The notes under the pieces: generated by a model
What the model saw: only the letters and a program-made list of their open reading frames with translations
The model's database searches: none
Told to the model about the DNA's origin: nothing
Position numbers and translations under genes: made by a program
Assembly (NCBI GenBank): GCA_030586155.1
Contig: CP130741.1
Coordinates: 2,412,680-2,476,679, forward strand
Direction of reading: 5' to 3'
Source: Eubacteriaceae bacterium ES3
Lineage (GTDB): Bacteria > Bacillota > Clostridia > Eubacteriales > Eubacteriaceae
Length of the DNA: 64,000 nt
Part shown: piece by piece, positions 37,049 to 44,137 of the stretch
Layout of the letters: each line of letters opens with the position of its first letter
How positions within the stretch are numbered: position 1 is the stretch's first letter

Positions 37049-38626
37049 TTATACAAAGCTCAATGTTCCGATATAAGAACCTGCTGCATTTCCAGAGAAG
37101 CTACAGCTTGAATCTACTGTTACACCACTAATGGTTGATGAAGAACCCATTGTTAAGCCATATCTCTGAGTTGCTACTGACTGATTATCGATAAACTGTA
37201 CATTTCTGAAAGCAATATCTGTCATAACCCCAGTCGAATCATAACTGTCGATTCTTACACCATCCATCGTTGCCGGAGAACCTTGACTGCTGTTTGAAAT
37301 GACACTGTCTTCAAACACGATATTCTGAACGCCAGAGCTTTGTCTTGAAGTTACCATTGATACGCCGCGCGACCTGTTGTTGGTAATGGTCATATTAGTA
37401 AATGATGCATTTGTAAGGTTTCTCGGAATATCAATTCCATAACTGTTGTTTGAAATCACGACACTGTCTGCACTTACATCATTGGCAGTATCCAGTTTTA
37501 AACCGACTTCGTTGTTGTCACTTATTTCACTGTTGCTGATTTCAACGCCCTGAACAGTTCCGTTTGTTCCCAGTAACTGAATTCCCATACCCATATTATT
37601 ATTAGTCTGTACATTGATGATTGTTATTTGTGAAGCTGACTGACCGCCGTTTGGTTCGATATCAATTCCGGCCTGTGGTGCTGTTCCATTTGTGTTACTG
37701 AAAACACTGTTGCTGACAGCTACATTGCTGGCGTTTGTAATTGACATTCCCTGTCTTCGGTTATTATCACTGACTACATTATCAACCGTTACTGCGCTTA
37801 CCGCCGGAGTACCACCCAGGTAAATGCCATCTCCCCAACAGTCAGTAATTGTCATATTGCTGATATCAATTCCACTGGCACCATCCAGAATGGTTACGCC
37901 CATTCCCCAGGCACCGGTTGTTCCTAAATGACCGTATCTTTCACCGACAATACTTCCACCAGCGATTGTGATATTATTCTGACCACTGATGCGGATTACT
38001 GCATTTGTCGAATTTGAGCTTGGAATGGCTTTTAATACTGCGTTTTCAGCAAGTGTTATGGTTTGTCCTGAGTTTGGTTCTAATGATGTGTTGACATCAA
38101 TCATGTAGGTTCCGTCGGGAATATAAACGGCTGAGTTGGCATTAAGTGCCGCCTGGATTGCCGATGTGTCATTCGTTACGCCATCACCTTTAGCCCCAAA
38201 ATCCAATACACTGACGCCACTTCCTGTATCAACTGGTTCACTCTGTTCCGGCACTGTCTCTTCCGGTGTTGTTTCATCCACTACTGGTTCTTCCACTACT
38301 ATTTCTTCCGGTGTTGTTTCATCCACTACCGGTTCTTCGACTACTACTTCTTCCGGTGTTGTTTCATCCACTACCGGTTCTTCGACTACTGCTTCTTCCG
38401 GTGTTGTTTCATCCACTGCTGGTTCTTCTACAGCTGATTCCTCAGGTGTTGTAGTTTCTTCTGGGGAAGCTGTTTCTTCTTCCTCTACCGGATTCCAAAT
38501 TTCATGCCATTTCGTAGGATTCCAGATCTTACTCCAATCCCATCTATCCCATCTTGACTTCGCCTGTACTGGCGAAGCACTAAATAACATCACTGCAACC
38601 AATAAAAGTGCCGATAGCTTTTTCAT
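37049..38626 (-). CDS. Secreted right-handed beta-helix protein 1
   Basis: Secreted protein of 525 residues. The signal peptide (about 1-22, ending PVQA) is followed by an acidic Pro/Glu/Thr linker (about 45-165) containing four 15-residue repeats of the type VVDETTPEEVVVEEP, then a Pectate_lyase_3-type parallel beta-helix (about 170-525: VSVLDFGAKGDGVTNDTSA, ISNMTITDCWGDGIYLGG). No sortase motif or ChW repeat is seen. The beta-helix is almost identical to those at 40157 and 42268. It may cleave or bind the exopolysaccharide; catalytic residues cannot be assigned. The ATG lies 15 bases from a GEMM-I riboswitch, with AAGGAG in between. Confidence 0.88.
   Translation of the reverse strand: MKKLSALLLVAVMLFSASPVQAKSRWDRWDWSKIWNPTKWHEIWNPVEEEETASPEETTTPEESAVEEPAVDETTPEEAVVEEPVVDETTPEEVVVEEPVVDETTPEEIVVEEPVVDETTPEETVPEQSEPVDTGSGVSVLDFGAKGDGVTNDTSAIQAALNANSAVYIPDGTYMIDVNTSLEPNSGQTITLAENAVLKAIPSSNSTNAVIRISGQNNITIAGGSIVGERYGHLGTTGAWGMGVTILDGASGIDISNMTITDCWGDGIYLGGTPAVSAVTVDNVVSDNNRRQGMSITNASNVAVSNSVFSNTNGTAPQAGIDIEPNGGQSASQITIINVQTNNNMGMGIQLLGTNGTVQGVEISNSEISDNNEVGLKLDTANDVSADSVVISNNSYGIDIPRNLTNASFTNMTITNNRSRGVSMVTSRQSSGVQNIVFEDSVISNSSQGSPATMDGVRIDSYDSTGVMTDIAFRNVQFIDNQSVATQRYGLTMGSSSTISGVTVDSSCSFSGNAAGSYIGTLSFV
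38261..38440 (-). repeat. Four 45-bp tandem repeats in beta-helix gene 1
   Basis: Units begin at 38261, 38306, 38351 and 38396 (motif TTCCGGTGTTG on the plus strand) with a constant 45-bp period, coding 15 residues each in the acidic linker. The unit is in frame, so copy-number change by slippage would alter linker length without breaking the gene. Confidence 0.9.
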
Positions 38627-38640
38627 TTTTTACTCCTTTT

Positions 38641-38710
38641 CGGTAGCCGGCTGCCATTTTACAGGCCCATGGCTTTGCGTCCCGGTCTTTCGCCCGGTTT
38701 GCCATTATCG
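38641..38710 (-). ncRNA. GEMM-I (cyclic di-GMP-I) riboswitch, copy A
   Basis: Minus-strand sequence has the GEMM-I core: GCAAACC, a GAAA-capped hairpin, GGGACGCAAAGCC, GGGCCT, and TGGCAGCCGGCTACC at the 3' end. It lies directly upstream of the ribosome site and ATG of beta-helix gene 1. No terminator is visible between aptamer and gene, so translational control is likely. The base two 5' of the conserved CAAACC (Vc2 position 20 by my alignment) is G (38703), as expected for c-di-GMP binding. Confidence 0.92.
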
Positions 38711-38762
38711 TGGAATAATCACACACGACATATTAAAAAATTCACAATAAAAAACTTCCTTT

Positions 38763-38833
38763 CGGTGACTGGCTGCCATTTTACAGGCCCTCTAGTTTTG
38801 CGTCCCAACCTTTCGACTGGTTTGCTATTATCG
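38763..38833 (-). ncRNA. GEMM-I riboswitch, copy B (tandem, distal)
   Basis: Second aptamer, 52 bases upstream of copy A on the same predicted transcript. The core elements GCAAACC, GAAA loop, GGGACGCAAAAC, GGGCCT and TGGCAGCC are kept, with compensating changes in the first hairpin (CCAGTC instead of CCGGGC). The ligand-discriminating base is A (38826), unlike copy A. Confidence 0.88.
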
Positions 38834-38856
38834 TTGAAAGTTTACTTCTTGACGTA

Positions 38857-38885
38857 ACTATATCATCTGACAATCGCGGCGTCAA
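38857..38885 (-). promoter_or_regulatory. Promoter of riboswitch array / beta-helix gene 1
   Basis: Minus-strand TTGACG (38880-38885), 17-base spacer, TATAGT (38857-38862), about 17 bases upstream of where copy B begins. The matching promoter before gene 3 at 44109-44137 has the same layout. Confidence 0.82.
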
Positions 38886-39025
38886 CATTTTTATCTATTT
38901 TTGTTCTTTTTCTTTTTTTAAACCAATATATGTTGTTTATATCTCTACTATGTTTATAATTTGTGGTTTTTAAACCTTTTCAATGCATTCAATTGCCGAC
39001 TATTCTCCCCCTGTTGAGCTTCAAA

Positions 39026-39871
39026 TCATTGTTCCCGATATCGCTGTTTATTAACCGCGGATTTAAAATCCCAGTCTTTAAATAGCTCGCTCCAGTCACA
39101 TTCATAACAAGGTGAATTAAGACATTTTTTCATCTCATCTATATGTTCCTCCCGACAAATCTGCGTTGATCCATATCGTCTCAAATTCTCAGTGGGCCAC
39201 ATACCTAAATCCATTATCCTAAAATTCAGTTCTTTTAATCTAAGTGCCAGTGCAGTCATGGCTATTTTCGAACCGCAATCCTTGCGGGTAAACATTGATT
39301 CATTGTAAAAACAAGCCCCAACTATAACGCCAAACAAACCTCCAATCAGCTGGTCATCCTGCCACACTTCAACAGAGTGGGCCTTACCCATCTCGAATAG
39401 CTTAACGGCAGCTTCTTTTCTTTTATTTGTTATCCATGTTGGCCCTTTTCTGTTTTCAGAGCAGGCATTGACAACTTCAAAATAGGCTCTATCTGCAGTG
39501 ATTCGAAAATTATCGTTCTTAATAAATTTACAAACCGTTCTTCTGATGTGTAAATCCTCAAGAAATAAAACACAATAGGTATCCGTCGTCCACCATAACA
39601 GCGGCTGACCTTCGTAGGACAAAGGATAAATCCCGTTTTTATATGCTAAAATGATTCGTTCCGGGGAGAAATCACCACCAAATGCTAACAATTTACCATT
39701 TGGGCCCATTTTAAATTTCTCATTTGCCGCTTCATGGGGCGGAAAATACAGCTCTTCTGTTAATTGATATACTTTTTTTCGATATCTTAGATGCCGAGAA
39801 TAAAATGTATTCAAATTTCCTTTGAAATATTTTTTATCAATCTTAGAAATTTCTGAAATTAATTTTCCCAT
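39026..39871 (-). CDS. Aat-like aminoacyl-tRNA transferase, copy 3
   Basis: Leucyl/phenylalanyl-tRNA transferase homologue of 281 residues, inserted between beta-helix genes 1 and 2. It has GKLLAFGGDFSPERIILAYK near 60, QPLLWWTTDTYCVLF near 85, CSENRKGPTWITNKRKEA near 130, HSVEVWQDDQLIGGLFGVIV near 160 and NESMFTRKDCGSKIAM near 185. It is very close to broken copy 2, so one probably arose from the other. Acceptor unknown; location again ties the family to the polysaccharide locus. Upstream, 39872-40056 is AT-rich with no gene. Confidence 0.83.
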   Translation of the reverse strand: MGKLISEISKIDKKYFKGNLNTFYSRHLRYRKKVYQLTEELYFPPHEAANEKFKMGPNGKLLAFGGDFSPERIILAYKNGIYPLSYEGQPLLWWTTDTYCVLFLEDLHIRRTVCKFIKNDNFRITADRAYFEVVNACSENRKGPTWITNKRKEAAVKLFEMGKAHSVEVWQDDQLIGGLFGVIVGACFYNESMFTRKDCGSKIAMTALALRLKELNFRIMDLGMWPTENLRRYGSTQICREEHIDEMKKCLNSPCYECDWSELFKDWDFKSAVNKQRYREQ

Positions 39872-40056
39872 TTTTATCCCCCCAGCTTAAAATTTATACA
39901 ATCTGACTCACTTTATCGCAGTTAACCAAATTCATATCTATTATTAAATACCCCATTATTTCCTTACTATAGCATTTATCAATAATAAAATTATATTTAG
40001 ACGCATTCTTTGCGAGCCTTTCAGAGCGTTTATATCTTCATTCTAATTTTAAACAA

Positions 40057-40098
40057 CAAAAGGGGTGCCAATTCATTCGATTGACAGCCCTTTTTTTT
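40057..40098 (-). terminator. Terminator after beta-helix gene 2
   Basis: Imperfect stem GGGGTGCCAAT with ATTGACAGCCC (two mismatches), T-rich on both sides (T8 at 40091-40098 on plus; TTTTGTTGTTT on minus). Related to the hairpins at 36951 and 42171. Confidence 0.65.
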
Positions 40099-40156
40099 TA
40101 GCTATTAATTTTGTTTACTCCTTTAATATGAGGAGATACTGACACGCTTTATTGAC

Positions 40157-41986
40157 TTATACAAAACTCAATGCTCCAATATAAGATCCTGCTGCGTTAC
40201 CTGCAAAACTGCAGCTTGAATCAACTGTTACACCGCTAATGGTTGATGAAGAACCCATTGTTAAACCATACCTCTGAGTTGCTACTGACTGATTATCGAC
40301 AAATTTTACATTTTTAAAGGCTATATTAGACATAACACCAGTCGAATCATAACTGTCAATTCTTACACCATCCATCGTTGCCGGAGAACCTTGACTGCTG
40401 TTTGAAATAACACTGTCTCTAAATACAATGTTTTGAACGCCAGAGCTTTGTCTTGAAGTTACCATTGATACGCCGCGTGACCTGTTGTTGGTGATGGTCA
40501 TATTAGAAAATGATGCATTTATCAGATTTCTCGGAATATCAATTCCATAACTGTTGTTTGAAATCTCGACATAATCAGCACTTACATCACTGGCAGTATC
40601 CAGTTTTAAACCGACTTCGTTGTTGTCACTTAACCTACTATTGATAATGTCGACTCCCTGAACACTTCCGTTTGTTCCCAGTAGCTGAATTCCCATACCT
40701 TTATTGTTATAAGACTGTACATTGATGATTGTTATTTGTGAAGCTGACTGACCGCCGTTTGGTTCGATATCAATTCCAGCCTGTGGTGCTGTTCCATTGG
40801 TGTTACTGAAAACACTGTTGCTGACAGTTACATTACTGGCGTTTGTAATTGACATTCCCTGTCTCCGGTTATTATCACTGACTACATTATCAACCGTTAC
40901 TGCGCTTACCGCCGGAGTACCACCCAGGTAAATGCCATCTCCCCAACAGTCAGTAATTGTCATATTGCTGATATCAATTCCACTGGCACCATCCAGAATG
41001 GTTACGCCCATTCCCCAGGCACCGGTTGTTCCAAAGTGACCGTATCTTTCACCGACAATACTTCCACCTGTGATTGTAATATTATTCTGACCACTGATGC
41101 GGATTACTGCATTTGTCGAATTTGAGCTTGGAATGGCTTTTAATACTGCATTTTCAGCAAGCGTAATGGTTTGTCCTGATTGAGGTTTTAACGAGGTGTT
41201 GACATCAATCATGTAGGTTCCGTCGGGTATGTAAACGGCTGAGTTGGCATTAAGTGCCGCCTGGATTGCTGATGTGTCATTCGCTACGCCATCACCTTTA
41301 GCTCCAAAATCCAATACACTGACGCCGCTTCCTGTATCAACTGGTTCACTCTGTTCTGGTACTGTCTCTTCCGGTATTGTTTCTTCTTGTGTCTGGTCAG
41401 TTGACACATTTGTCGAACCGCTATTTCCTAAATTATCACTAGCTGCAGCTTTTTCTTCAATTACAACTTCAATCGCTTCCAGACGCAAGCCTTTTCCTTC
41501 TGATCCAGCCATGGCACCATCATATACCCAGCCTTGCTCCCAACCTTCATTCTGGATGTGAGTACGATATTTTACTGAGTAATTCTGAGCTTCTTGTCCA
41601 GTCAAACGGATTTCAATACCTTCCAGTCTTAGGCCCTGGCCTTCCGAACCTGAAAAATCTCCATTTGAAGCAAATTCTTCTTCCCAACCAATGTTCTGGA
41701 TATGAGTGCGGTATTCAATTCCCAGATCTCCGGGAACATCACCTGTCAGTTTAATTTCAATGCCTTCCAATCGCAGGCCTTTTCCTTCTGAACCGGAAAG
41801 ATCGCCATCATTGACAAAGCCCTGAGCCCATCCTTCGTTCTGAATATGAGTTCGATAAGATACCCCAAAATCGGTTACTTGAGCTGCTGCCACTTTCTCC
41901 ATCGGCATTGAAAGATTTAGAAAACTGATCATCAAAAATAAAAGACTTAAAAATCCTGCATTAACTTTACTATATTGTTTTAACAT
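40157..41986 (-). CDS. Secreted ChW-repeat beta-helix protein 2
   Basis: Secreted protein of 609 residues. After a signal peptide (about 1-35) come three ChW repeats (about 42-80, 90-128, 138-176), each with YRTHIQN.GW and SEG.GLRLE.IE, then a short Thr/Glu linker and the Pectate_lyase_3 beta-helix (about 240-609) nearly identical to proteins 1 and 3. The ChW repeats replace the acidic repeat linker of the paralogues, so the same beta-helix is presented through a different anchor. One intact GEMM-I aptamer precedes the gene, followed upstream by a degenerate second one. Confidence 0.9.
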   Translation of the reverse strand: MLKQYSKVNAGFLSLLFLMISFLNLSMPMEKVAAAQVTDFGVSYRTHIQNEGWAQGFVNDGDLSGSEGKGLRLEGIEIKLTGDVPGDLGIEYRTHIQNIGWEEEFASNGDFSGSEGQGLRLEGIEIRLTGQEAQNYSVKYRTHIQNEGWEQGWVYDGAMAGSEGKGLRLEAIEVVIEEKAAASDNLGNSGSTNVSTDQTQEETIPEETVPEQSEPVDTGSGVSVLDFGAKGDGVANDTSAIQAALNANSAVYIPDGTYMIDVNTSLKPQSGQTITLAENAVLKAIPSSNSTNAVIRISGQNNITITGGSIVGERYGHFGTTGAWGMGVTILDGASGIDISNMTITDCWGDGIYLGGTPAVSAVTVDNVVSDNNRRQGMSITNASNVTVSNSVFSNTNGTAPQAGIDIEPNGGQSASQITIINVQSYNNKGMGIQLLGTNGSVQGVDIINSRLSDNNEVGLKLDTASDVSADYVEISNNSYGIDIPRNLINASFSNMTITNNRSRGVSMVTSRQSSGVQNIVFRDSVISNSSQGSPATMDGVRIDSYDSTGVMSNIAFKNVKFVDNQSVATQRYGLTMGSSSTISGVTVDSSCSFAGNAAGSYIGALSFV

Positions 41987-41997
41987 CCTTATCCTTT

Positions 41998-42067
41998 CGG
42001 TAGCCGGCTGCCATCTTACAGGCCCTTGGCTTTGCGTCCCGGTCTTTCGCCCGGTTTGCTATTATCG
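41998..42067 (-). ncRNA. GEMM-I riboswitch, copy C
   Basis: All core elements are intact: GCAAACC, GAAA loop with the CCGGGC/CCGGG stem, GACGCAAAGCC, GGGCCT and TGGCAGCCGGCTACCG. It ends 11 bases before the ATG of beta-helix gene 2, with AAAGGAT in between. The discriminating base is A (42060), unlike the proximal aptamers of genes 1 and 3. Confidence 0.9.
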
Positions 42068-42122
42068 TGGAATAATTTACTCACGATGACTTAAATTTAC
42101 TATGAAAACTTTTTAAAATTAC

Positions 42123-42168
42123 AAACTGCCATCTTTCAGGCCCTATACCAATCTTTCAACTAATTTAC
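42123..42168 (-). ncRNA. Degenerate GEMM-I aptamer remnant, copy D
   Basis: Matches the distal-type aptamers at TGGCAGTTTGT, GGGCCTGAAAG and the TTGAAAGATTGG hairpin, but lacks the whole GGGACGCAAAAC segment and the conserved GCAAACC. It is presumably non-functional. It lies directly next to the terminator of gene 3, so the recombination that duplicated the unit probably ended here and removed the original promoter. Confidence 0.7.
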
Positions 42169-42170
42169 TT

Positions 42171-42206
42171 TTTAAGGGCTGTCAATTCGAATGATTGACA
42201 ACCCTT
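42171..42206 (-). terminator. Terminator after beta-helix gene 3
   Basis: 13-bp stem (42174-42186 with 42194-42206) with one G-U on the minus strand, followed by TTAAAAAG. The poor T run suggests leaky termination; readthrough could help transcribe gene 2, whose own promoter is not obvious. Confidence 0.6.
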
Positions 42207-42267
42207 AAGTTTAAAATTAAATGTATGTATCCTCTGTTATCAGGAAATGTTAACACTCTTTATTGAC

Positions 42268-43722
42268 TTATACAAAGCTCAATGTTCCGATATAAGAACC
42301 TGCTGCATTTCCAGAGAAGCTACAGCTTGAATCTACTGTTACACCACTAATGGTTGATGAAGACCCCATTGTTAAGCCATATCTCTGAGTTGCTACTGAC
42401 TGATTATCGATAAACTGTACATTTCTGAAAGCAATATCTGTCATAACGCCAGTCGAATCATAACTGTCAATTCTTACACCATCCATCGTTGCCGGAGAAC
42501 CTTGACTGCTGTTTGAAATGACACTGTCTTCAAACACGATATTCTGAACGCCAGAGCTTTGTCTTGAAGTTACCATTGATACGCCGCGTGACCTGTTGTT
42601 GGTAATGGTCATATTAGTAAATGATGCATTTGTAAGGTTTCTCGGAATATCAATTCCATAACTGTTGTTTGAAATCACGACACTGTCTGCACTTACATCA
42701 CTGGCAGTATCCAGTTTTAAACCGACTTCGTTGTTGTCACTTATTTCACTGTTGCTGATTTCAACACCCTGAACAGTTCCGTTTGTTCCCAGTAACTGAA
42801 TTCCCATACCCATATTATTATTAGTCTGTACATTGTTGATTGTTATTTCTGAAGCTGACTGACCGCCGTTTGGTTCGATATCAATTCCGGCCTGTGGTGC
42901 TGTTCCATTTGTGTTACTGAAAACACTGTTGCTGACAGCTACATTGCTGGCGTTTGTAATTGACATTCCCTGTCTTCGGTTATTATCACTGACTACATTA
43001 TCAACCGTTACTGCGCTTACCGCCGGAGTACCACCCAGGTAAATGCCATCTCCCCAACAGTCAGTAATTGTCATATTGCTGATATCAATTCCACTGGCAC
43101 CATCCAGAATGGTTACGCCCATTCCCCAGGCACCGGTTGTTCCTAAATGACCGTATCTTTCACCGACAATACTTCCACCAGCGATTGTGATATTATTCTG
43201 ACCACTGATGCGGATTACTGCATTTGTCGAATTTGAGCTTGGAATGGCTTTTAATACTGCGTTTTCAGCAAGTGTTATGGTTTGTCCTGAGTTTGGTTCT
43301 AATGATGTGTTGACATCAATCATGTAGGTTCCGTCGGGAATATAAACGGCTGAGTTGGCATTAAGTGCCGCCTGGATTGCCGATGTGTCATTCGTTACGC
43401 CATCACCTTTAGCCCCAAAATCCAATACACTGACGCCACTTCCTGTATCAACTGGTTCACTCTGTTCCGGCACTGTCTCTTCCGGTGTTGTTTCATCCAC
43501 TACTGGTTCTTCCACTACTATTTCTTCCGGTGTTGTTACATCCACTACCGGTTCTTCGACTACCGGATCTTCCACTACCGGTTCTTCGACTACTGCTTCT
43601 TCTGTTACAGTTTCCTTGGCTGGTTTATTGGGATTCCAAGTTTTATCTTTAGGTGCTGCATAAACTGATACGCTACTGAACAACATCACTACAATCACTA
43701 AAAGTGCAGATAACTTTTTCAT
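42268..43722 (-). CDS. Secreted right-handed beta-helix protein 3
   Basis: Secreted protein of 484 residues with a signal peptide (about 1-22, ending VYA), a shorter acidic linker (about 35-120) built from VVEEPVV and DVTTPEEIVVEEP units, and the Pectate_lyase_3 beta-helix (about 125-484). The beta-helix differs from protein 1 by only a few residues. The upstream region has three tandem GEMM-I aptamers and a consensus-like promoter. Function is presumed to be matrix polysaccharide modification or a structural matrix role; no catalytic residues can be named. Confidence 0.88.
   Translation of the reverse strand: MKKLSALLVIVVMLFSSVSVYAAPKDKTWNPNKPAKETVTEEAVVEEPVVEDPVVEEPVVDVTTPEEIVVEEPVVDETTPEETVPEQSEPVDTGSGVSVLDFGAKGDGVTNDTSAIQAALNANSAVYIPDGTYMIDVNTSLEPNSGQTITLAENAVLKAIPSSNSTNAVIRISGQNNITIAGGSIVGERYGHLGTTGAWGMGVTILDGASGIDISNMTITDCWGDGIYLGGTPAVSAVTVDNVVSDNNRRQGMSITNASNVAVSNSVFSNTNGTAPQAGIDIEPNGGQSASEITINNVQTNNNMGMGIQLLGTNGTVQGVEISNSEISDNNEVGLKLDTASDVSADSVVISNNSYGIDIPRNLTNASFTNMTITNNRSRGVSMVTSRQSSGVQNIVFEDSVISNSSQGSPATMDGVRIDSYDSTGVMTDIAFRNVQFIDNQSVATQRYGLTMGSSSTISGVTVDSSCSFSGNAAGSYIGTLSFV
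43480..43600 (-). repeat. 45-bp and 15-bp repeats in beta-helix gene 3
   Basis: Two copies of the same 45-bp unit as in gene 1 (starting at 43480 and 43525), then shorter imperfect 15-bp units (TCCACTACCGG, TCTTCGACTACCGG). Fewer units than gene 1, showing length change since duplication. Confidence 0.8.
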
Positions 43723-43737
43723 TTTTTTACTCCTTTT

Positions 43738-43807
43738 CGGTAGCCGGCTGCCATCTTACAGGCCCTTGGCTTTGCGTCCCGGTCTTTCGCCCGGTTTGCC
43801 ATTATCG
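43738..43807 (-). ncRNA. GEMM-I riboswitch, copy E (proximal)
   Basis: Nearly identical to copy A: GGCAAACC, GAAA loop, GGGACGCAAAGCC, GGGCCT, TGGCAGCCGGCTACCG. It ends 15 bases before the beta-helix gene 3 ATG with AAAAGGAG in between. The discriminating base is G (43800). Confidence 0.92.
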
Positions 43808-43859
43808 TGGAATAATCACACACGACATATTAAAAAATTCACAATAAAAAACTTCCTTT

Positions 43860-43930
43860 CGGTAACTGGCTGCCATTTTACAGGCCCTTTAGTTTTGCGT
43901 CCCAGCCTTTCGACTGGTTTGCTATTATCG
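43860..43930 (-). ncRNA. GEMM-I riboswitch, copy F (middle)
   Basis: Distal-type aptamer like copy B: AGCAAACC, CCAGTC hairpin with GAAA loop, GGGACGCAAAAC, GGGCCTG, TGGCAGCCAGTTACC. The discriminating base is A (43923). It is 52 bases from copy E, the same spacing as B to A. Confidence 0.9.
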
Positions 43931-43997
43931 TTGAAAGTTCACTTCAACATTATATTTAGTTTGCGGTCCGAGTATTAGAAAATCCTTCGCTTCCTTT

Positions 43998-44068
43998 CGA
44001 CAACTGGCTGCCATTTTACAGGCCCTTTAGTTTTGCGTCCCAGTCTTTCGACTGGTTTGCTTTTGTCA
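43998..44068 (-). ncRNA. GEMM-I riboswitch, copy G (first transcribed)
   Basis: Third tandem aptamer: AGCAAACC, CCAGTC hairpin with GAAA loop, GGGACGCAAAAC, GGGCCTG and TGGCAGCCAGTTGTCG. The 5' flank differs from the other copies (AAAAGC), and the discriminating base is A (44061). Confidence 0.87.
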
Positions 44069-44108
44069 ATACTTCGAATTTTATCGTTTCCGTTCGTTCC
44101 TTGACATA

Positions 44109-44137
44109 ACTATATCACCTGACAATACCCAAGTCAA
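44109..44137 (-). promoter_or_regulatory. Promoter of triple riboswitch array / beta-helix gene 3
   Basis: Minus-strand TTGACT (44132-44137), 17-base spacer, TATAGT (44109-44114), same architecture and similar sequence as the promoter before gene 1. Upstream, 44138-44518 is AT-rich and shows no gene or clear terminator. Confidence 0.82.

Follow-up and report, generated by a model that had tools for sequence, protein, structure and literature searches.

The question raised by this locus is whether nearly identical riboswitch aptamers, standing one behind the other in a single leader and differing at the base that influences ligand choice, report two second messengers or one. The window, i.e. 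the whole stretch of 64,000 nucleotides from Eubacteriaceae bacterium ES3 analysed here (GenBank assembly GCA_030586155.1, contig CP130741.1, positions 2,412,680 to 2,476,679), contains three genes for right-handed beta-helix proteins, referred to as genes 1 to 3, which are preceded by aptamers of the GEMM-I class. This class includes riboswitches for cyclic di-GMP (c-di-GMP) and for 3',3'-cyclic GMP-AMP (cGAMP or c-AMP-GMP). The answer proposed here from sequence, with moderate confidence, is that the aptamers belong to serial OFF switches, in which copies with G at position 20 (G20) would read c-di-GMP tightly. Copies with A at this position (A20) would be functional, weaker and more promiscuous readers of cyclic dinucleotides; in this cell, c-di-GMP is most probably still what they normally bind, at a higher threshold.

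The aptamers of the window were located with cmscan using Rfam, and position 20 was read from the structure-based Rfam alignments. Exactly six GEMM-I (c-di-GMP-I) aptamers were found, all on the minus strand and with scores of 59.8 to 66.7 bits. Three of them are reported by RF01051 (59.8 to 66.7 bits, cut-off 35), all six exceed the cut-off of this model, and copies A, E and F pass that of RF03167. A remnant, copy D, was matched neither by the Rfam search nor by our own aptamer model.

38638..38712, minus strand: aptamer A, gene-proximal copy of gene 1; G20, A47, C92; position 20 at 38703; RF03167, 65.4 bits.
38761..38836, minus strand: aptamer B, promoter-proximal copy of gene 1; A20, A47, C92; position 20 at 38826; RF01051, 59.8 bits.
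41996..42070, minus strand: aptamer C, sole intact copy of gene 2; A20, A47, C92; position 20 at 42060; RF01051, 62.9 bits.
42121..42168 (approximate), minus strand: remnant of aptamer D, upstream of C, read by eye; the GGGACGCAAAG segment (junction J2/3) is lost.
43735..43809, minus strand: aptamer E, gene-proximal copy of gene 3; G20, A47, C92; position 20 at 43800; RF03167, 65.5 bits.
43857..43932, minus strand: aptamer F, middle copy of gene 3; A20, A47, C92; position 20 at 43923; RF03167, 61 bits.
43996..44071, minus strand: aptamer G, promoter-proximal copy of gene 3; A20, A47, U92; position 20 at 44061, position 92 at 44000; RF01051, 66.7 bits.

Position 20 is the base directly 5' of the first pair of helix P2 and corresponds to column 11 of RF01051 and column 10 of RF03167. 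From the structure of the Vc2 aptamer, we take this column to be Vc2 position 20. The helix limits given in PMC6274999 are consistent with this assignment. An earlier sequence-only reading of this stretch had placed G at the Vc2-position-20 base of copies A and E and A in copies B, C, F and G by hand alignment. The Rfam alignment returns the same bases at identical coordinates, so that the variable base falls on position 20 and a location elsewhere was rejected. The description of genes 1 and 3 as led by mixed arrays (B-A and G-F-E) and of gene 2 as led by the A type only also holds, C being the one intact aptamer of gene 2. The bases G20, A47 and C92, which form the c-di-GMP contact set, are complete in A and E, while B, C and F carry A20, A47 and C92, the base set of the cGAMP-binding GEMM-Ib aptamers. 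Two features go beyond the earlier description: copy G combines A20 with U92, and E and C differ at position 20 alone over 77 aligned bases, forming a natural G20A pair.

The earlier statement that base 20 shifts the selectivity of GEMM-I aptamers is backed by the literature. In Gmet_0970, the exchange A20G turns selectivity from cGAMP to c-di-GMP (PMC6456294), and a natural Desulfobacca variant with the pocket-base change typical of c-AMP-GMP riboswitches gained affinity for c-AMP-GMP, with c-di-GMP binding perhaps slightly weaker (PMC9481103). In the parts considered, this literature supports a real effect of base 20 and does not state that A20 in the background of the present aptamers excludes c-di-GMP.

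The proposed regulatory direction is based on the expression platforms of the leaders of genes 1 and 3, given here with adjacent promoter-like sequences:

43846..43856, minus strand: platform of copy F; 3' half GGAAGUU of an extended P1 helix running into UUUUUU, with the 5' half AACUUUC at 43933-43939; terminator-like.
38749..38759, minus strand: platform of copy B; same extended P1 and U-tract as F, with the 5' half at 38836-38842.
43730..43733, minus strand: Shine-Dalgarno sequence GGAG of gene 3; possible pairing partner UUAUUCC at 43809-43815, part of copy E's extended P1.
38633..38636, minus strand: Shine-Dalgarno sequence GGAG of gene 1; possible pairing partner UUAUUCC at 38712-38718, part of copy A's extended P1.
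44109..44137, minus strand: promoter-like TTGACT-17-TATAGT upstream of copy G; such matches are equally frequent in shuffles.
38857..38885, minus strand: promoter-like TTGACG-17-TATAGT upstream of copy B; such matches are equally frequent in shuffles.

In copies B and F, ligand binding would shift the RNA to an extended P1 that leads directly into the U-tract, terminating transcription. In the gene-proximal copies, the extended P1 would cover the Shine-Dalgarno sequence and block translation, so that along the leader the terminator would come first and the Shine-Dalgarno block last. Without ligand, an upstream hairpin is expected to compete for the 5' strand of P1 in most terminator-type copies. 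Both arrangements predict OFF switches. Each of the three genes would be led by genuine switches of this kind, acting in series for genes 1 and 3, and a high level of cyclic dinucleotide would silence the beta-helix enzymes.

The duplexes and hairpins were compared with 200 mononucleotide shuffles as controls. The platform duplex of F reaches -7.6 kcal/mol (z -2.1, with a z of -2.6 for the competing upstream hairpin) and that of B -7.2 kcal/mol (z -2.0). Pairing of the Shine-Dalgarno sequence reaches -7.6 kcal/mol both with copy E at gene 3 (z -3.2) and with copy A at gene 1 (z -2.2). For the 20 terminator-type copies scored in the genus, the mean z is -2.5 for the extended P1 and -3.6 for the competing upstream hairpin. 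In all 19 aligned copies, five or more U stand immediately after the extended P1; these copies were drawn from the 20 scored, leaving out L176:3882, and their 3' strands are one base out of register in the MAFFT alignment. A simple terminator scan limited to loops of 3-8 bases misses the proposed terminators of the window because the whole aptamer would form the loop.

Whether the A20 copies are working aptamers can be judged from their relatives. The genus set comprises 145 aptamers, taken from among the matches listed of 184 counted in 19 genus genomes; they represent 18 genomes, G007 contributing none. Counts over 141 rows omit four degenerate aptamers (L189:5629, L162:3040, L210:3222, L172:5467), which are included in counts over 145 rows. 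A20 occurs in 37 of the 145 aptamers and in 16 of the 18 genomes, and A47 is present throughout (145/145). Among the 141 intact aptamers, position 20 is G in 107 and A in 34 and is never a pyrimidine. Positions 21-23, 25 and 46-49 are invariant and the G21-C46 pair is always kept; six rows show G in the position-92 column through an extra base in P3 and were read as C by eye. The complete home genome of the window (3.39 Mb, one contig) contains 16 aptamers above the cut-off, of which six are A20. Besides the four of the window, these are located at 213435, before a pilin-like gene, and at 1161790, before an operon resembling those for Tad pili, with gene names read from translations.

A position 20 that is always a purine within an otherwise invariant core points to working aptamers rather than to decay, and not to chance. 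It is unlikely, in our judgement, that A20 reflects near-neutral drift or a first step of decay, by which upstream copies lose sensing and keep only the outer stem for RNA structure or stability. Some observations do fit such a course: position 20 changes frequently on a tree of the aptamers, copy D is a remnant, and the core of the most upstream copy is broken in G004, G008 and G013 (A20) and in G002 (G20), with a long P1 still possible. These four relatives indicate that upstream copies can outlive their sensing function. However, the cores of B, C and F are intact and A20 is retained in 13 of 14 arrays before Tad-like operons, so that an explanation of A20 copies as merely decayed upstream copies holds for some relatives and not for B, C and F. 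The core-broken copies (L172:5467-5544, L189:5629-5706, L210:3222-3299, L162:3040-3116) can still form their long P1 although no U-tract follows it, which would suit an independent function of the outer stem.

Mixed arrays are not confined to the window. The tandem before the Tad-like operon was found in 14 genus genomes, with A20 in the upstream copy in 13, G20 in the downstream copy in 11 and a mixed pair in ten; G006, whose second copy lies outside the cluster, was entered as G/G. In the home genome, this tandem (L291 3791-4033, G000:C1:1161790-1162032) consists of an A20 and a G20 aptamer with, by eye, a terminator-like hairpin after each, and orthologues are present at L159, L161, L175, L179, L191, L193, L197, L205 and L209. 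Sorted by downstream gene, A20 is found in 11 of 52 beta-helix leaders (one copy in this cluster, from G006, is of another kind), in 4/6 copies of the L001 family, in 2/9 before pilin-like genes and in 0/13 of the L002 family. The gene-proximal copy was always G20 in the mixed genus arrays that were read. Outside the genus, A20 and G20 aptamers lie less than 200 bases apart in G028 and G036, which belong to one genus, and in G079 from another, with the order reversed, i.e. G20 upstream and A20 downstream. As a separate observation, the L002 locus of the home genome (G000:C1:1859998-1860483) is a triple array of G20 GEMM-I aptamers about 4 kb or less from GGDEF domains at 1861389 and 1863311.

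The sequence-only reading had proposed a two-signal gate. Under it, 3',3'-cGAMP would be the true ligand of the A20 copies and c-di-GMP that of the G20 copies; genes 1 and 3 would then need both messengers to be low and gene 2 would follow cGAMP alone. The results do not support this gate, which we consider possible, though on the unlikely side. A20 is the GEMM-Ib base, a single exchange at this position switches the selectivity of Gmet_0970, and position 20 is the sole difference between E and C. The constancy of the upstream A20 and the mixed pairs before the Tad-like operon, together with the adjoining A20 and G20 aptamers in three genomes of two other genera, fit this reading. Furthermore, cGAMP in Geobacter also targets pilus and polysaccharide genes (PMC6456294). 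Against the gate, the array order is reversed in the two other genera, orthologous aptamers flip between the two bases (G in L176:5639, A in L227:4071, with one further difference), and the Geobacter RNA differs also at the 21-46 pair (PMC6274999), which is kept as G21-C46 here.

The supply of messengers speaks against it as well. Hypr enzymes, which the sequence-only reading had named together with DncV as candidate sources of cGAMP, carry Ser or Thr at the position of PleD D344 (PMC9140294). In the home genome, to which this check was applied, 59 of 64 GGDEF domains carry Asp there, and the remaining five have Gly, Asn, Leu, Asn and Ser, all without an intact GG(D/E)EF motif, so that no Hypr Ser or Thr with an intact motif was recognised among the 64. 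In Geobacter, activity is documented for a GGDDF enzyme that has the Hypr Ser (PMC8835794); the single GGDDF domain of the home genome has Asp at this position. Other synthase families were searched with PF21654 and PF02457 only. A DncV-like enzyme is indeed present, in a defence setting: the home genome encodes two SMODS synthases beside defence partners, one of which matches the DncV-like domain and is accompanied by E1-E2, JAB and a phosphoesterase-SAVED effector in the arrangement of a cyclic-oligonucleotide-based antiphage signalling system (CBASS). The second is paired with a four-transmembrane (4TM) effector, and the two CBASS-like units neighbour each other (L294 3000-9922). The DncV-like family (PF21654) occurs in two of 19 genus genomes, the home genome and G010, and none of the seven G010 aptamers in the genus set is A20. 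Owing to its CBASS locus and to this narrow distribution, cGAMP from the DncV-like enzyme of the home genome was rejected as the cause of A20.

One diadenylate cyclase domain was found in the home genome, and the inventory as a whole leads to the expectation of c-di-GMP and cyclic di-AMP (c-di-AMP), with no recognisable everyday source of cGAMP. A DncV-like family in 2/19 genomes, set against A20 in 16/18, and the lack of a Hypr enzyme at home count for A20 copies as readers of c-di-GMP. Either cGAMP or c-di-AMP may nevertheless provide an input to them.

The history of the base leads in the same direction. On a quick tree, position 20 requires 19 changes. A paired column with the same base composition requires 15, and six of seven other columns tried require four to eight. 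Such recurrence fits a tuning of affinity better than the acquisition of a new messenger each time.

The account of serial switches with A20 as a weaker c-di-GMP reader has to be weighed against several results. That A20 is retained before the Tad-like operon (13/14 genomes) would also agree with a genuine second ligand, and a sequence search of the home genome would miss a cGAMP synthase of an unknown kind. The tree was built on about 80 short columns, and column 27 requires 23 changes, more than position 20. Regarding the platforms, the competing hairpin of copy B is at chance level (z -0.1), and copy C shows weaker Shine-Dalgarno pairing (z -0.5). Seven copies, including C and G, were assigned to neither platform type by scoring. 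For the 28 copies of the Shine-Dalgarno type, the mean z of the extended P1 is only -0.8, which makes the translational half of the model the weaker one. In addition, the stretches of F and E yield minimum-energy folds that do not exceed dinucleotide shuffles in stability (z -0.8 for F, -0.7 for E) and lack the extended P1; the predicted fold of F contains the upstream hairpin, as expected without ligand.

Copy G deserves separate consideration. A survey of the class covered 391 genomes and used exact patterns that match 110 of the 145 known aptamers; copy B is among those missed. Matches to A20/C92 were obtained in 15 genomes, to G20/C92 in 72, to G20/U92 in three and to A20/U92 in one, copy G being the only match to its pattern. 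The engineered Vc2 aptamer with the same double change (G20A/C92U) binds c-di-AMP (PMC9049102, PMC7288161). The dissociation constants quoted in PMC9049102, evidently for c-di-GMP, are 0.011 nM in the wild type and 4900 nM in the double mutant. Copy G could accordingly be imagined as a natural GEMM-I aptamer responsive to c-di-AMP and an extra input for the array of gene 3, a very improbable reading in our view. The diadenylate cyclase domain of the home genome would provide a source, and the copy G stretch folds stabler than shuffles (z -2.25). The combination A20/U92 appears, however, only once under the pattern set described, and U92 is not tied to A20, since it also accompanies G20 in three aptamers of the genus. 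Moreover, copy G has no clear platform (duplex z -0.7, hairpin z -0.3), and in its predicted fold, U92 and G91 pair with J1/2 in a continuous stem across the pocket, which may thus be locked shut. The pocket of the three G20/U92 aptamers (L195:4004-4081, L196:1200-1288, L222:2239-2322) might accommodate cGAMP in reversed orientation. C at position 16 is common to copy G, two G20/U92 aptamers of beta-helix leaders and one C92 copy (L219:2850).

An even bolder idea, to which we attach very little credence, is that the gene 3 leader holds pockets for three cyclic dinucleotides: c-di-AMP in G, cGAMP or either signal in F and c-di-GMP in E. If this were true, one leader RNA would integrate all three bacterial cyclic dinucleotides through termination and translation block in series, and near-identical copies would owe their different specificities to one or two bases.

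The downstream genes are closely related and are arranged as follows:

37049..38626, minus strand: gene 1, right-handed beta-helix, pectate-lyase-like protein of 525 amino acids (AA); PF13229, PF12708.
40157..41986, minus strand: gene 2, beta-helix protein of 609 AA with three N-terminal ChW repeats; PF07538, PF13229, PF12708.
42268..43722, minus strand: gene 3, right-handed beta-helix, pectate-lyase-like protein of 484 AA.

A 394-AA domain of gene 3 is 99% identical to that of gene 1, and the domain of gene 2 is 93% identical. Genes 1 and 3 also have near-identical leaders, and both likenesses together point to a recent duplication or gene conversion. The three genes adjoin glycosyltransferase-like and other exopolysaccharide-type genes, whose names were read from translations and not from a family search. 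Among the latter lie three paralogous genes resembling leucyl/phenylalanyl-tRNA-protein transferases (PF03588; 32405-33283, 33314-34051 and 39026-39871, minus strand), one of them between two riboswitch-led genes. Their number and setting are unusual for an N-end-rule enzyme.

The pair of copies E and C provides G20 and A20 in otherwise identical sequences of 77 bases, from one genome and before related genes, which makes the ligand of A20 GEMM-I riboswitches outside Geobacter directly testable. The conserved A20-G20 tandem before the Tad-like genes offers a second test case. Should A20 copies still respond to c-di-GMP, position 20 by itself would predict cGAMP riboswitches poorly; a response to cGAMP would mean that the lineage contains a cGAMP synthase of an unrecognised kind.

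Compared to the c-di-GMP-I riboswitches of the Vc2 type (GEMM-Ia, RF01051), the aptamers of the window share the fold, the P2/P3 architecture, A47, the GAAA loop and, in five of six copies, C92. They differ in A20 in four of six copies, in U92 in one, in a P3 reduced to a small hairpin and in the mixing of G20 and A20 within arrays. Copies A, E and F pass the cut-off of c-di-GMP-I-GGC (RF03167), but the consensus G47 of that family is absent, since all six copies carry A47; "GGC" is read here, as we infer, as bases 20, 47 and 92. A separate ligand class for these matches was rejected for this reason, and the RF03167 label does not track position 20 because the A20 copy F also scores there.

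With the Geobacter cGAMP riboswitch (GEMM-Ib), copies B, C and F share the bases A20, A47 and C92, and a link to surface genes is common to both. The first pair of P2 is G21-C46 here and C15-G40 in the crystallised Geobacter RNA (PMC6274999), a difference that may not be a defining one for the class. The platforms described here appear to be of the OFF type, whereas the Geobacter reporter was induced (PMC6456294), and no Hypr synthase was recognised in the home genome.

In the open-licence literature searched, a scope that does not include the main GEMM-Ib papers, no leader combining G20 with A20 aptamers was encountered. A parallel is offered by the clusters of c-di-GMP-I, c-AMP-GMP and adenosylcobalamin (AdoCbl) riboswitches in Desulfobacca acetoxidans (PMC9481103), where very similar aptamers of one region likewise include one with the pocket base of the c-AMP-GMP type. 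There, the variant belongs to a different cluster, together with an AdoCbl riboswitch, whereas G20 and A20 share one leader here. Finally, a known leader with three complete GEMM-I riboswitches has the same triple arrangement as gene 3 and responds in a stringent, digital manner. The arrays described here are mixed at position 20 and seemingly end in a translational platform.

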